From a virus: a stretch of 44,411 nt of DNA. Of this stretch, positions 28,991 to 34,616 are shown in pieces (within the stretch, counting starts at the first letter, position 1; each line of letters begins with the position of its first letter). The DNA lies in the IMG/VR virus record IMGVR_UViG_3300027985_000521, positions 1 through 44,411 of that record. One strand, 5' to 3'. The translations under genes were made by a program, and so were the position numbers. The notes below the pieces were generated by a model. It was not told the origin of the DNA, searched no databases, and saw nothing but the letters and a program-made list of their open reading frames with translations.

Positions 28991-29081
28991 TGGTGTTATT
29001 TTGTTATTTACTGGATTGATCATATTTGGTATATTAAAAATAAAAAACTGTGAAACTCCACGAGTTCACAAAATAACACCA
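28991..29081. other. 14-bp perfect inverted repeat enclosing a hairpin and a promoter
   Basis: TGGTGTTATTTTGT (28991-29004) is the exact reverse complement of ACAAAATAACACCA (29068-29081). Inside the 63-nt spacer a second stem forms (TGTGAA-A-CTC with GAG-TTCACA, 29050-29070 region, one bulge), which partly competes with the right arm. A sigma70-like promoter also lies inside. The element ends 7 nt before the AAGGAGG of the next gene. Read as RNA it is a structured leader, and read as DNA it could form a cruciform or operator. Confidence 0.7.
29007..29035 (+). promoter_or_regulatory. Candidate sigma70 promoter for the 29.1-kb gene group
   Basis: The -35 is TTTACT (29007-29012), followed after 17 bp by the -10 TATATT (29030-29035). 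The same -35 and spacing recur in the promoter at 33883. It would restart transcription after the primase gene. Confidence 0.6.
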
Positions 29082-29386: not shown

Positions 29387-29418
29387 CAAAAACACTACAA
29401 AAAAAGGAGATGAAAATT

Positions 29419-29947: not shown

Positions 29948-29999
29948 TTATTACTGAACTAGTGCCAAATAGAAATATTTGGCACTGCTGAAGTAATAA
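29948..29999. other. Long nested stem-loop after membrane protein gene
   Basis: The outer stem TTATTACT (29948-29955) pairs with AGTAATAA (29992-29999). The inner stem AGTGCCAAAT (29961-29970) pairs with ATTTGGCACT (29977-29986). The two arms are separated by 5-nt unpaired stretches on each side. The structure starts right at the gene end but no T-run follows, so it is not a standard terminator. It may protect the 3' end of the upstream message. The rest of the gap to 30070 holds nothing else I can identify. Confidence 0.65.
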
Positions 30000-30069: not shown

Positions 30070-30675
30070 ATGAGAATACGCGATACTAAAGGAAATACTA
30101 TATATATATATAAGGACGAATCTACAACTATTAAAGAGTGTGTAGAAAACGCAGTTAAAAGAAATATTAGTTTAAGTGAAGCTAATCTATCTAAAGCTGA
30201 TCTTAGTGAAGCTGATCTTAGTGAAGCTGATCTTAGTGGAGCTGATCTTAGTGAAGCTAAGCTATTTAGAGCTGATCTATTTAGAGCTGATCTATTTAGA
30301 GCTGATCTTAGTGGAGCTGATCTTAGTGAAGCTAATCTTCGTGGAGCTGATCTTAGTAGAGCTAATCTTCGTGGAGCTGATCTTAGTAGAGCTGATTTTA
30401 GTGGAGCTAATTTAAATAGTACTACCCTGTACGGAGCAACAATACCAGACGGTATTACACTATCACTAATCCCGATTCAGGTGTCTACTGGTGTATACTA
30501 TATAACTATTTTTGATTCTCATATGCAAATAGGATGTGAATTTCACTCTCTAAAAGAGTGGTGGAAGTTTAATAACGAACAGATTATTGAAATGGACGGT
30601 AAAAAAGCACTAACATTTTGGAAGGCCTGGAAAAAACCATTACAGTTAATATGTAAAAACAATAATAGGAAATAA
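30070..30675 (+). CDS. Pentapeptide-repeat protein
   Basis: The 201-residue product starts at ATG 30070 behind AAAGGAGAA. Residues about 36-122 are 17-18 consecutive A(D/N)LSx pentapeptides, forming a right-handed quadrilateral beta helix. The N-terminal 30 residues and the C-terminal 75 residues (with EFHSLKEWWKFN and ALTFWKAWKK) form separate caps. Some pentapeptide proteins mimic DNA and bind gyrase, but nothing here proves that role. At DNA level the repeats are near-identical 15-mers (GCTGATCTTAGTGGA-like), a sign of recent expansion. The repeat also leaves the second frame open, which is an artefact. Confidence 0.88.
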   Translation: MRIRDTKGNTIYIYKDESTTIKECVENAVKRNISLSEANLSKADLSEADLSEADLSGADLSEAKLFRADLFRADLFRADLSGADLSEANLRGADLSRANLRGADLSRADFSGANLNSTTLYGATIPDGITLSLIPIQVSTGVYYITIFDSHMQIGCEFHSLKEWWKFNNEQIIEMDGKKALTFWKAWKKPLQLICKNNNRK

Positions 30676-30687
30676 AGGAGAATAACT

Positions 30688-31265
30688 ATGGCAATTTTAG
30701 ACGGAAAGAAGATTGGAGATATAGTAGAGATTAAAGGTAAGCTATATAAAGTGGAAAAAGGAAATAATTGTAAAAATGTGTGCTATTAGTGACATTTGTA
30801 GTGACTTGCCATATATTGACTGTTCTGCTATACCAGCAGTATTAGTAAAAGCGAAATATAATACAAAACCTATTGACTACTCAGGTTGCCATCCAGCAAT
30901 AGCGGAATACTTAAGGAAAGGAGAACAAATTGAGTGTATAGTATGGAATAGTGACCAGAAGCTAAAAAAATGGCCTACAAAAATTTGTATGTGGATTTGA
31001 TGTCAGCTATCCAGAATATCCATATAAAACAGCGGATGAATATTATGAACACGCTGAGCCTATAGAGCTTACCGCAAAAGTAAAGAAGGTAAAGAAAGCG
31101 TCTAAGATAGTTAAATGGCTTGAAAAGAACGGTTATATTTGTGACGAGAATGGTTGCTGGTCAAACTGTTCTGTAACAAGCTTTAAACCCGAAATGTTTT
31201 ACTATTGCAGAAGAGAGCCGAGCAGTGACTTTACATGGCTCCCTGAATGGTTGGAGGATTGTTAA
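30688..31265 (+). pseudogene. Hypothetical protein gene broken by two single-base frameshifts
   Basis: ATG 30688 behind AAAGGAGAA starts a 33-codon frame (MAILDGKKIGDIVEIKGK, then NNCKN). The continuation lies one frame later (CAISDICSDLPYIDC, up to WNSDQKLK, to about 30970) and the rest in the third frame (KFVCGFDVSYPEYPYKTADE to WLPEWLEDC, stop 31263-31265). Removing one A from the 5-A run near 30773-30777 and one from the 7-A run at 30964-30970 restores one 191-residue Cys-rich protein with natural joins (NNCKMCAISDIC and KLKNGLQKFVCGFD). Its stop overlaps the next start as TAATG, so the intact form was translated until recently. It is either a real decay or homopolymer errors. Confidence 0.75.
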
Positions 31266-31674: not shown

Positions 31675-32001
31675 ATGAAAGCATTTTACGTAGTTAACAG
31701 TGACACTTATTTTGGCAAGAAAAATGACGAAGCTAAAACCATCACTGGGGTTTATGTTTGTCAGAAGTCAGATACAGTACCTAGAGCATTCAATGAGATT
31801 GCAGCTAGGTATATCAAAGCAAAAGCTTTAGGTAACCTAAGTGTAATTGAGCTAGGAGGCGTGTCTGATATTCCGGTCCGTAAGATGAATAGATCTGAAC
31901 AACTGGAATTTAAAATTGCTAAAATGTATTACCAAGAGGCTAAAGAGACGGCTATTTCTAACTTGGTCAACGATACTTTTGACCAAATCAGAAAAAAGTA
32001 A
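31675..32001 (+). CDS. Hypothetical protein, zero-frame product upstream of a putative -1 frameshift
   Basis: The 108-residue product starts at ATG 31675 behind AAAGGAGAA. It is a mixed alpha/beta protein (MKAFYVVNSDTYFG, then ITGVYVCQ, then a helical second half) and matches no family I know. It ends R-K-K-stop in the sequence AGA AAA AAG TAA. The last seven bases before the stop are A AAA AAG in register, an efficient -1 slippery heptamer in bacteria. Ribosomes that terminate would make this short form. Those that slip would continue in 31998-32561. A small upstream stem (31963-31970 with 31979-31986) also flanks the site. Confidence 0.75.
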   Translation: MKAFYVVNSDTYFGKKNDEAKTITGVYVCQKSDTVPRAFNEIAARYIKAKALGNLSVIELGGVSDIPVRKMNRSEQLEFKIAKMYYQEAKETAISNLVNDTFDQIRKK

Positions 32002-32060
32002 CGTCCTGCTCTGACGCTATAAAAAGAGCTCCGACATTATCGGAGCTCGCTCAGAGTGGG
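31992..32060 (+). promoter_or_regulatory. Putative -1 programmed ribosomal frameshift signal
   Basis: The heptamer A AAA AAG (31992-31998) is in the zero frame of the upstream gene. It is followed by a 6-nt spacer (TAACGT, containing the zero-frame stop) and a 10-bp stem CCTGCTCTGA (32005-32014) with TCAGAGTGGG (32051-32060), including two G-U pairs. Inside it lies a 9-bp perfect stem GAGCTCCGA (32026-32034) with TCGGAGCTC (32040-32048). The known bacterial example with the same heptamer is dnaX. There is no T-run after the stems, so a terminator reading is poor. Confidence 0.7.
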
Positions 32061-32561
32061 TCGGTATTAGATACAGCACAATTTAGCTGTATATACGACA
32101 CAGTTCCCGAATGCGAGACTTTAAAGGCATTTAGCTATCCTTTACGGATAAAAGGCCTGGATGGCGCGTCTACAAGTGAGGAAGATTGTTCAAATACAGC
32201 TATAGAAAAGGAGGACAAAGACCAAAGAATAAAATTAAAATTTAGGGTACCTCGAGGCATATTAACAACAAAATTTAGTAGTATCGACTCAATAAACGAT
32301 ACGTTACGAGGAACTAATTTAAAAGCAATAACTAGAGGGAGAGGGATGCTAACTCAAATAATAGGAGTTAGATACAGAAATACAAACAGAACATGGTCTA
32401 AAGTTTACTATTATGAAGCAAACCGAGATATAGAAATGGGAGACTATGTAATAACACACCCAGATCCTTATAAGGTAACACGGGTAGTAGAAGCTAAAGT
32501 ACCGCCAAGCCCTACTATAAAATATAACCCAATAGTGGGTCAAATCATAGAAAGGAGATAG
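31998..32561 (+). CDS. -1 frame extension of the 31675 gene (or separate small gene starting at 32346)
   Basis: After slippage the ribosome would read GTA at 31998 and stay open for 187 codons to the stop at 32559-32561, giving a 295-residue fusion. There is no ATG, GTG or TTG in this frame before ATG 32346, so the first 116 codons have no ordinary way to be translated alone. The reading frame is protein-like (for example RIKLKFRVPRGILTTKFSS, then RYRNTNRTWSKVYYYEA, then GDYVITHPDPYKVTRVVEAK, an SH3-like beta pattern). ATG 32346 follows GGGAG and could also start a 71-residue internal product. The ribosome binding site of the next gene overlaps its end. Confidence 0.6.
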   Translation, partial: VTSCSDAIKRAPTLSELAQSGSVLDTAQFSCIYDTVPECETLKAFSYPLRIKGLDGASTSEEDCSNTAIEKEDKDQRIKLKFRVPRGILTTKFSSIDSINDTLRGTNLKAITRGRGMLTQIIGVRYRNTNRTWSKVYYYEANRDIEMGDYVITHPDPYKVTRVVEAKVPPSPTIKYNPIVGQIIERR

Positions 32562-32563
32562 TT

Positions 32564-33811
32564 ATGATGCCACCAGAAGTTCATGCGTCAATGAGTCCAT
32601 CAAGACTTCAAAGAATTATTGATTGTCCAGGAAGTTATACTTTTGCCCAGGAGTTTGAATCTGGGCAGACTTCTTATGCGGCTGAAGGTACTCTACTTCA
32701 TCTTGCTGTAGAACGAACACTACGTCCATTAATCAAAGACCAAAGTATGTTATCATTACCTGAGTTTAAAGAATTATTAAGCCAGCTCAAAGTAAAACCT
32801 GATATTGTATCGCCTATACTTGAAAAAGATCAGGTGAATGCCGCAGAAGATTGTATTGTATATCTTAGTAATATACTCGCCGAATACGGTGAAGATTGGT
32901 CTTATTCTATTTGGTCTGAGCTCGAAGTTACTATGGCTAAATATGATCCGAGGCTTTATGACGTGGCAGGAACTGCAGACATTGTAATTCTACTTCAATG
33001 TGACGCAGATAGTAGACTCATAGTAGCAGATTGGAAATTTGGTCAAGGAGTAGCTGTATATGCTGAGGAAAACGACCAGTTGAATGCTTATGCTTGTGGT
33101 GCCGCAGTTAATGTGAATACCCTACGTTCTTACAAGCGTATTGATATTCATGTTGTACAACCTAGGCTTGATAATTATGACACTGTTAGCTATGATCCAG
33201 ATGCTTTGCTTCTTTGGATGAACGAGCGCCTTTTGCCTTCAGTCGACCTAGCGTTATCTCAGCATCCTCCGTTTAACCCTGGTCATAAACAGTGCCGTTG
33301 GTGCCCTGCAAATGTCGGGTGTAAAGCTCGTCATGCTTTTGCTAATGAAGTGGCTGCAAAAGTATTTGCGGTGGCTGACGCTGGAATTGAAAAGGTAAGT
33401 ATTGAAGAACTTGCGGACTTGCTTGAGAAGTCACGAGATTTGACGACTTATATTAGTGATATCGGAATTTATTTAAAGCGTAAAATTGAAAATGGAATTC
33501 CGGTTCCGCGTTTCAAAATTATCGCCGGAAGAGCAAATCGAAAATGGGAAAGCGAGGAAAAAGCTGAAAAGTGGATGACTCTCAATGCCAATGTTTTTGG
33601 TTTGGATCTAGGCGATTTATATACTTCAAAGTTCATAAGTCCTGCTCAGGCTGAAAAACTGAACCGTCAAATGAAAACTAATAAAGCGTTTCAAGAGCTA
33701 ATTATTAAGCCTGAAGGTACTCCAACTTTGGTTCATGAGAGTGCTAAAGGCGTTGCGATTGACTACCGAACCGCAGAAGAGAAGTTTAAAGACGCCCTTG
33801 TGGAAGAATAG
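32564..33811 (+). CDS. DUF2800-family Fe-S nuclease (PD-(D/E)XK, RecB/Cas4-like)
   Basis: The 415-residue product starts at ATG 32564 (or 32567) behind AAGGAGA. It shows the DUF2800 layout: SPSRLQRIIDCPGSY (11-25), AAEGTLLHLAVE (39-50), GTADI with D139, VADWKFGQG with D156 and K158, and N170/QL..Y (Q172). Four cysteines, C21 plus C244-x2-C247-x5-C253, are spaced as in the iron-sulphur cluster of AddB/Cas4-type nucleases. It is expected to trim DNA ends during replication or recombination. In many phages DUF2800 is encoded just before DUF2815, polymerase, VRR-NUC and SNF2 genes, as here. Confidence 0.88.
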   Translation: MMPPEVHASMSPSRLQRIIDCPGSYTFAQEFESGQTSYAAEGTLLHLAVERTLRPLIKDQSMLSLPEFKELLSQLKVKPDIVSPILEKDQVNAAEDCIVYLSNILAEYGEDWSYSIWSELEVTMAKYDPRLYDVAGTADIVILLQCDADSRLIVADWKFGQGVAVYAEENDQLNAYACGAAVNVNTLRSYKRIDIHVVQPRLDNYDTVSYDPDALLLWMNERLLPSVDLALSQHPPFNPGHKQCRWCPANVGCKARHAFANEVAAKVFAVADAGIEKVSIEELADLLEKSRDLTTYISDIGIYLKRKIENGIPVPRFKIIAGRANRKWESEEKAEKWMTLNANVFGLDLGDLYTSKFISPAQAEKLNRQMKTNKAFQELIIKPEGTPTLVHESAKGVAIDYRTAEEKFKDALVEE

Positions 33812-33823
33812 CTTAAAGTTCCG

Positions 33824-33861
33824 AATTACTATACTGTAATTACGATTACAGTATAGTAATT
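33824..33861. other. 17-bp perfect hairpin
   Basis: AATTACTATACTGTAAT (33824-33840) pairs perfectly with ATTACAGTATAGTAATT (33845-33861) around a TACG loop. It starts 12 nt after the nuclease gene. No T-run follows on either side, so it is not an obvious terminator. It lies 22 bp upstream of a promoter and could be a regulator binding site, an mRNA-processing site or a cruciform. Confidence 0.8.
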
Positions 33862-33974: not shown

Positions 33975-34562
33975 ATGAGCGACACTAATAAACCCAGTAA
34001 ACAAGACATCGTTGTATCAATGGTAAAAGAAGGGATTCATACCCGTGATGAAATTCGCGCAGCCGCTGCGTGTACAACTGGAGCCCTGGCCTCATATTTG
34101 ACAGCTCTTAGAAACGCTGCTAAATATTCTGGCGAACCAATTTGTCCAGTTGAAGTAGAAAAAGAAATTGATGGAAAAGCTGTTAAAGTTTTTTCTGTTG
34201 TTTCTTATGAAGAAGCAGAGTCAATGCGAGCTGAAAAGGCTACTAGTTCAAAGACTTCAACTCCAAAAGACCCAAACGCTCGCTATCTCGCGGCTAAAAA
34301 ACGCGTTGATCGCTGTGAAAAAGCGGCAAAATCTGCAGCGGACCGCGCTGAGAAAGGTAAGACTGAAGAGCTTGACCTCAGGGCTGAAAAAGCTCGTATC
34401 GAGCTGCGTCTTGCTGAGATTGAAATGGAAACCATTACCAAGTTTTTCGAGTCTGAAGGCCTTGAATTTCCTAAAGAACCTACTAGCCCTGAAATGCTAG
34501 AAGAGACTGAGCCTGAGGAAATGCCAGAAGACGAGGAAGTGTCTGAAGACGACTTGATGTAA
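33975..34562 (+). CDS. Hypothetical protein with HTH-like N-terminus and acidic tail
   Basis: The 195-residue product starts at ATG 33975 behind AGGAGG. Residues 8-50 (KQDIVVSMVKEGIHTRDEIRAA, then TTGALASYLTALRN) look like a winged helix. Residues 95-150 form a charged coiled coil (CEKAAKSAADRAEKGKTEELDLRAEKARIEL). The last 30 residues are strongly acidic and end EEVSEDDLM. Acidic tails of this kind occur on ssDNA-binding and other replication-associated phage proteins. It is monocistronic between a controlled promoter and a terminator, so it is probably made in quantity. Confidence 0.7.
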   Translation: MSDTNKPSKQDIVVSMVKEGIHTRDEIRAAAACTTGALASYLTALRNAAKYSGEPICPVEVEKEIDGKAVKVFSVVSYEEAESMRAEKATSSKTSTPKDPNARYLAAKKRVDRCEKAAKSAADRAEKGKTEELDLRAEKARIELRLAEIEMETITKFFESEGLEFPKEPTSPEMLEETEPEEMPEDEEVSEDDLM

Positions 34563-34580
34563 TATTCGTCAGATAATATT

Positions 34581-34616
34581 AAAGAGTGGCAGTTATGTCT
34601 GTCACTCTTTTTATTT
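34581..34616 (+). terminator. Rho-independent terminator
   Basis: AAAGAGTGGCAG (34581-34592) pairs with CTGTCACTCTTT (34599-34610), one G-U pair, around a 6-nt loop. It is followed by TTATTT. It lies just after the 33975 gene and isolates it from the nucleotide-metabolism operon. Confidence 0.9.

Follow-up and report, generated by a model that had tools for sequence, protein, structure and literature searches.

We favour an ordinary gene boundary followed by an intergenic hairpin as the explanation for positions 31675 to 32561 of the window, by which we mean the whole 44,411-nt stretch of viral DNA analysed (IMG/VR record IMGVR_UViG_3300027985_000521). We give this reading about an even chance and place it ahead of a −1 programmed ribosomal frameshift, with an insertion or deletion (indel) in an A-run next; the weights attached here to these three and to a fourth reading are judgements. 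On the favoured reading, the 108-codon gene would terminate at the TAA at 31999–32001, the sequence directly behind it would form a strong intergenic hairpin of the kind that this phage places after several of its early genes, and the 71-codon open reading frame (ORF) at 32346 would be a separate gene using its own ribosome-binding site (RBS). Low-level −1 slippage at the A AAA AAG that abuts the stop may still happen, without being under selection. The support for an ordinary boundary consists of the class to which the hairpin belongs, the separate RBS and the absence of the arrangement from relatives, while the chief fact against it is the intervening −1 frame, whose openness we would have to put down to chance or to the remains of a former coding sequence.

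The 108-codon gene (31675–32001, + strand) lies in the early region and has no assigned function. It is preceded by the RBS AAAGGAG (Shine-Dalgarno [SD] duplex −8.7 kcal/mol), shows a codon-usage z of 4.2 against a stop-free null, and ends AGA AAA AAG TAA. The preliminary description had proposed an A AAA AAG heptamer in slippery register adjoining this stop, and the sequence agrees, with the heptamer at exactly the positions given for it, 31992–31998. When all intact genes of the window were scanned, 2 of 14 A6G heptamers lay in the slippery phase, the 31992 site being one of them, compared with 3.1 expected. Codon phase 0 accounted for 11 of the 14, numbers too few to claim avoidance. For a wider comparison we applied a simple gene caller to 53 non-redundant phage loci together with the window (0.8 Mb; 1,085 genes), and found that four genes (approximately 0.4%), that at 31675–32001 included, end in exactly A AAA AAG plus a stop; the −1 frames of the other three are short or contain a start, and none is both long and start-free. 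A gene ending with the heptamer is mildly unusual, and a −1 frame as open as this one strongly so. No SD-like stimulator was found about 10 nt upstream of the heptamer, where the preceding sequence reads ACGATACTTTTGACCAAATCAG. Transcriptional slippage at the run was judged unlikely because it comprises only six A's, whereas such sites have more than seven in Antonov et al. (PMC3711429).

Just 3′ of the stop lies a 23-bp two-part hairpin (32002–32063, + strand) with a minimum free energy (MFE) of −35.2 kcal/mol and a z of −6.0, and none of 200 shuffled sequences folded as well. The two stems that had been drawn for this region fold as described: a 10-bp stem at 32005–32014/32051–32060, which includes two G-U pairs, and an inner 9-bp stem at 32026–32034/32040–32048, with further pairing at 32002–32003/32062–32063 and 32016–32017/32049–32050. 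The spacer between the heptamer and the 10-bp stem is 6 nt, as had been claimed, and falls within the 5–9 nt expected of a dnaX-type signal. An intrinsic terminator on the + strand was rejected at 32002–32063, since there is no + strand T-run; the run TTTTTAT is found on the − strand only, where the hairpin is terminator-like. Because the coding strand is without a T-run, the hairpin would probably act on the transcript, through 3′-end protection or as an RNase III-type processing site, rather than in termination. No Rfam family matched within the window, and the remainder of the gap behind the stop is weak as structured RNA (z −1.5).

Similar hairpins recur behind other early stops. We folded the 80 nt 3′ of each of 23 early stops, six of them followed by gaps of at least 90 nt and 17 at tight junctions, and obtained z < −4 in four of the six long gaps (beginning at 29948, 32002, 33812 and 34563) versus none of the 17 tight junctions. 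With the 31675–32001 gene set aside, the counts were three of five versus 0 of 17 (hypergeometric ~0.006). As controls, a comparable two-part hairpin directly follows a stop at 29948–29999 (+ strand; z −4.8 over the 80 nt that follow the stop and −6.4 in the best 70-nt window), and a comparable 17-bp hairpin follows the exonuclease stop at 33824–33861 (+ strand; z −4.2 and −5.9). The fourth, at 34581–34610 (+ strand; z −4.5 and −5.4), comes after the stop at 34562 and is terminator-like, with a + strand T-run that the other three early hairpins lack. As background, z < −3 is reached in approximately 4% of coding windows. The 32002 hairpin fits this intergenic-hairpin class of the early block and is not peculiar to the 108-codon gene. 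The frequency of strong hairpins behind other early stops points to TAA 31999 as the place where the 108-codon gene really ends. At about 20 bp, and with their distribution between gaps (4/6) and tight junctions (0/17), the recurring post-stop hairpins show the pattern of RNase III-type processing hairpins. The early transcripts of T7-like phages carry intercistronic RNase III hairpins, and the hairpins here resemble them in being about 20 bp long, imperfect, placed immediately behind the stops of an early operon and mostly without T-runs; the T7-like phages are a different phage group, and processing in the present phage is a prediction.

Downstream, the 71-codon ORF at 32346–32561 (+ strand) has its own ATG and an RBS, GAGGGAGAGGG, that pairs with the anti-SD at −8.5 kcal/mol, inside the range of early gene starts. 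An SD this strong was found at only one of 131 internal in-frame starts, the other 130 being weaker; the starts listed at 29416, 40041 and 41621 were wrongly set and are left out of this comparison. The ORF weakly matches phrog_3489 (E 0.007 by protein; 6.8e-4 when one genome was searched), and the match begins at the Met of the ORF, residue 1, and at profile position 1; the phrog_3489 profile gave no match in 48 related virus records. Since it combines a full-strength RBS with a family match running from its ATG, ORF 32346 needs no fusion for its expression, and it looks like a separate gene of its own.

The fact that weighs most heavily on the other side is the −1 frame between the two genes. 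The preliminary description held that this frame is open for 187 codons to 32561 and that its first 116 codons contain no ATG, GTG or TTG, and this is borne out, the first start being the ATG at 32346, in the same frame. The start-free stretch (31998–32345, + strand) is either intergenic or recoded. Dinucleotide shuffling of 31998–32345 kept the frame open in 1 of 20,000 cases, for a site that was itself picked from a scan, and in the comparison set a −1 frame open for at least 60 codons without a start was seen in 1 of 45 gaps of at least 300 nt, that one being the gap at 31998, again a site picked from a scan. Every other gap in the block is also at most about half the length of that between 32001 and 32346. 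The open −1 frame exceeds what chance readily gives.

Whether the stretch is coding was assessed against a null in which composition is kept and stops are forbidden. Its −1 frame scored z 2.0 (p 0.02), compared with 1.0 to 8.3 for short real genes here, 2.4 for the two longer of the segments into which frame shifts divide the neighbouring gene at 30688–31265, and 0.4 and −2.0 for the gap's two remaining frames. The signal is confined to 32067–32228 (z 2.3), and 32229–32345 scored 0.0. G+C at codon position 1 minus position 2 was −0.21 in 32229–32345 and −0.065 across 32067–32345, the latter at the 1.4th percentile of gene windows. Taken as a whole, the −1 frame of the stretch leans weakly towards coding. 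Structure prediction for the 187-residue −1-frame product gave a pLDDT of 38, too poor to use. Against an ordinary boundary, then, stand 116 open codons that share the frame of ORF 32346 exactly, a heptamer, 6-nt spacer and hairpin that fit a canonical signal, and a weak −1-frame coding signal that is near that of the shifted neighbour segments and is not reached in the other frames. The gap also contains, at 32206–32216, the SD-like sequence AAAAGGAGGAC, which has no common start codon within reach; its nearest in-frame candidate is ATA 32229.

To place the block in its genomic context, we compared it with related phages. The phage encodes a PHROG 332 head-tail adaptor, a family A polymerase, a PHROG 69 exonuclease, a thymidylate synthase, a gp2.5-like single-stranded DNA-binding protein, a ligase and a SNF2-type helicase, from which we infer that it is podovirus-like. 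Its TerL relatives lie at 49–67%, the closest phages at 60–67%. The exonuclease gene (32564–33811, + strand; phrog_69 E 1.3e-69) serves as the downstream anchor and is conserved in three relatives, L067, L071 and L007. In L067 and L071 both the primase and the exonuclease are kept (37–43%) with different small genes between them, among which the 108-residue gene, the open stretch and ORF 32346 have no counterpart. L007 has its replication genes in the same order and likewise different small genes at the primase-exonuclease slot, and the sequence of a further relative, L073, ends ahead of the exonuclease and so before the block. None of the three parts is kept in any relative found. Late-gene and polymerase searches in phages found no close relatives, and a helicase search of genome contigs returned distant matches only.

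Homology searches gave a similar result. The product of the 108-codon gene had no homologs in phages, plasmids, an IMG/VR pattern search, PHROGs, Pfam, NCBIfam, PADLOC or the PDB, chance-level matches aside. Neither the open stretch nor ORF 32346 had homologs in phage DNA, phage and plasmid proteins, the IMG/VR pattern search, PHROGs, Pfam, NCBIfam, PADLOC or the PDB, apart from the weak phrog_3489 match of the latter and chance-level matches.

A real −1 programmed frameshift, as initially proposed, is in our view somewhat unlikely. The hairpin would pause the ribosome, a slip at A AAA AAG would bypass the stop, and a 295-residue fusion would be made beside the 108-residue protein, with ORF 32346 also started independently. 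The anatomy of the dnaX-like arrangement is all present: the heptamer is in phase and is that of dnaX, among the most shift-prone in E. coli (PMC5009743, PMC4066793), the spacer is suitable, the hairpin is very stable (−35 kcal/mol), the −1 frame is open beyond chance with a weak coding signal, and in-phase A6G is otherwise scarce in the genes of this phage (2/14, with 3.1 expected). Against it, the hairpin is of a generic class not specific to the 31992 site, the heptamer is without an upstream SD-like stimulator, ORF 32346 has a strong start and RBS of its own, and the nearest relatives lack the block. In addition, Antonov et al. expect overlapping genes, sequencing errors or mutational indels behind orphan singleton frame transitions (PMC3711429). 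The fuller proposal, in which an early non-structural gene carries a dnaX-like signal at its stop and yields a 295-residue fusion with an orphan middle domain unique to the frameshifted product, the downstream gene being expressed alone as well, we consider unlikely.

Comparison with known recoding sites shows both likenesses and differences. As in E. coli dnaX, A AAA AAG is in register and is followed by a short spacer and a downstream stem-loop, but the 31992 site lacks the upstream SD-like stimulator; furthermore, the dnaX −1 frame ends immediately, whereas at 31992 the stop directly behind the heptamer is that of the 0 frame, and it is the −1 frame that is long. A slip near the end of the gene would extend some of the product at its C terminus, as in lambda G-GT and in gene 10 of T7 and T3. 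The lambda, T7 and T3 genes belong to tail assembly and the capsid, the classes in which phage frameshifting is best known, and some of them are widely conserved (PMC5009743), whereas 31675–32001 is an orphan early gene. The earlier remark on the rarity of recoding in non-structural phage genes is fair without being absolute, since −1 frameshifting has been seen in cro of phage A2 on decoding in E. coli (PMC5009743). Phage A2 cro resembles the putative case at 31992 in being a non-structural phage gene with −1 frameshifting, but its frameshifted product is just 12 residues shorter than the standard one, while a shift at 31992 would lengthen the product by 187 residues. Should the frameshift prove real, known −1 recoding would gain a rare example among non-structural phage genes, one built on the textbook heptamer of bacteria and a hairpin of unusual stability, and located in a variable gene slot between primase and exonuclease. 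If it is not, the site is a caution that a heptamer, a hairpin and an open frame are insufficient evidence when a phage puts such hairpins behind ordinary stops.

We regard as quite improbable that an A-run indel, natural or from assembly, broke a single fused gene and left the heptamer and stop as by-products. The preliminary description had cautioned about A-run shifts nearby, and rightly: the small cysteine-rich gene at 30688–31265 can be read through only if two +1 shifts are made, at A5 30772–30776 and A7 30964–30970, and its final frame ends TAATG, overlapping the start of the next gene. From the cysteine pattern and this overlap we read its segments as one protein, although a homolog supporting this was not found. 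Such shifts next door make an A-run indel at 31992 likelier too, and in bacterial surveys errors or indels often account for orphan singletons (PMC3711429). However, the window holds approximately 140 runs of at least five A or T inside intact genes, and errors are therefore not general. A hairpin this strong inside a gene would be a coincidence (z < −3 in about 4% of coding windows), yet such hairpins are usual after true stops here, and the full-strength RBS at 32346 would be a further coincidence (1/131).

Reliance on a rare start codon is very improbable. The stretch and ORF 32346 would then be one gene, begun for example at ATA 32229, which lies behind the strong AAAAGGAGGAC that no common start follows and has the best SD score of the rare-start candidates in the usual window (−5.6 kcal/mol), but 14 nt separate GGAGG from ATA, too long a spacing, 32229–32345 has no coding signal, ORF 32346 offers a better start, and ATA start codons are very rare.

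Two further features of the region were observed. A pentapeptide-repeat protein is encoded at 30070–30675 in the variable slot, and L071 has a relative of it at the same place. The gap after the primase contains a 14-bp perfect inverted repeat, with TGGTGTTATTTTGT at 28991–29004 and ACAAAATAACACCA at 29068–29081.
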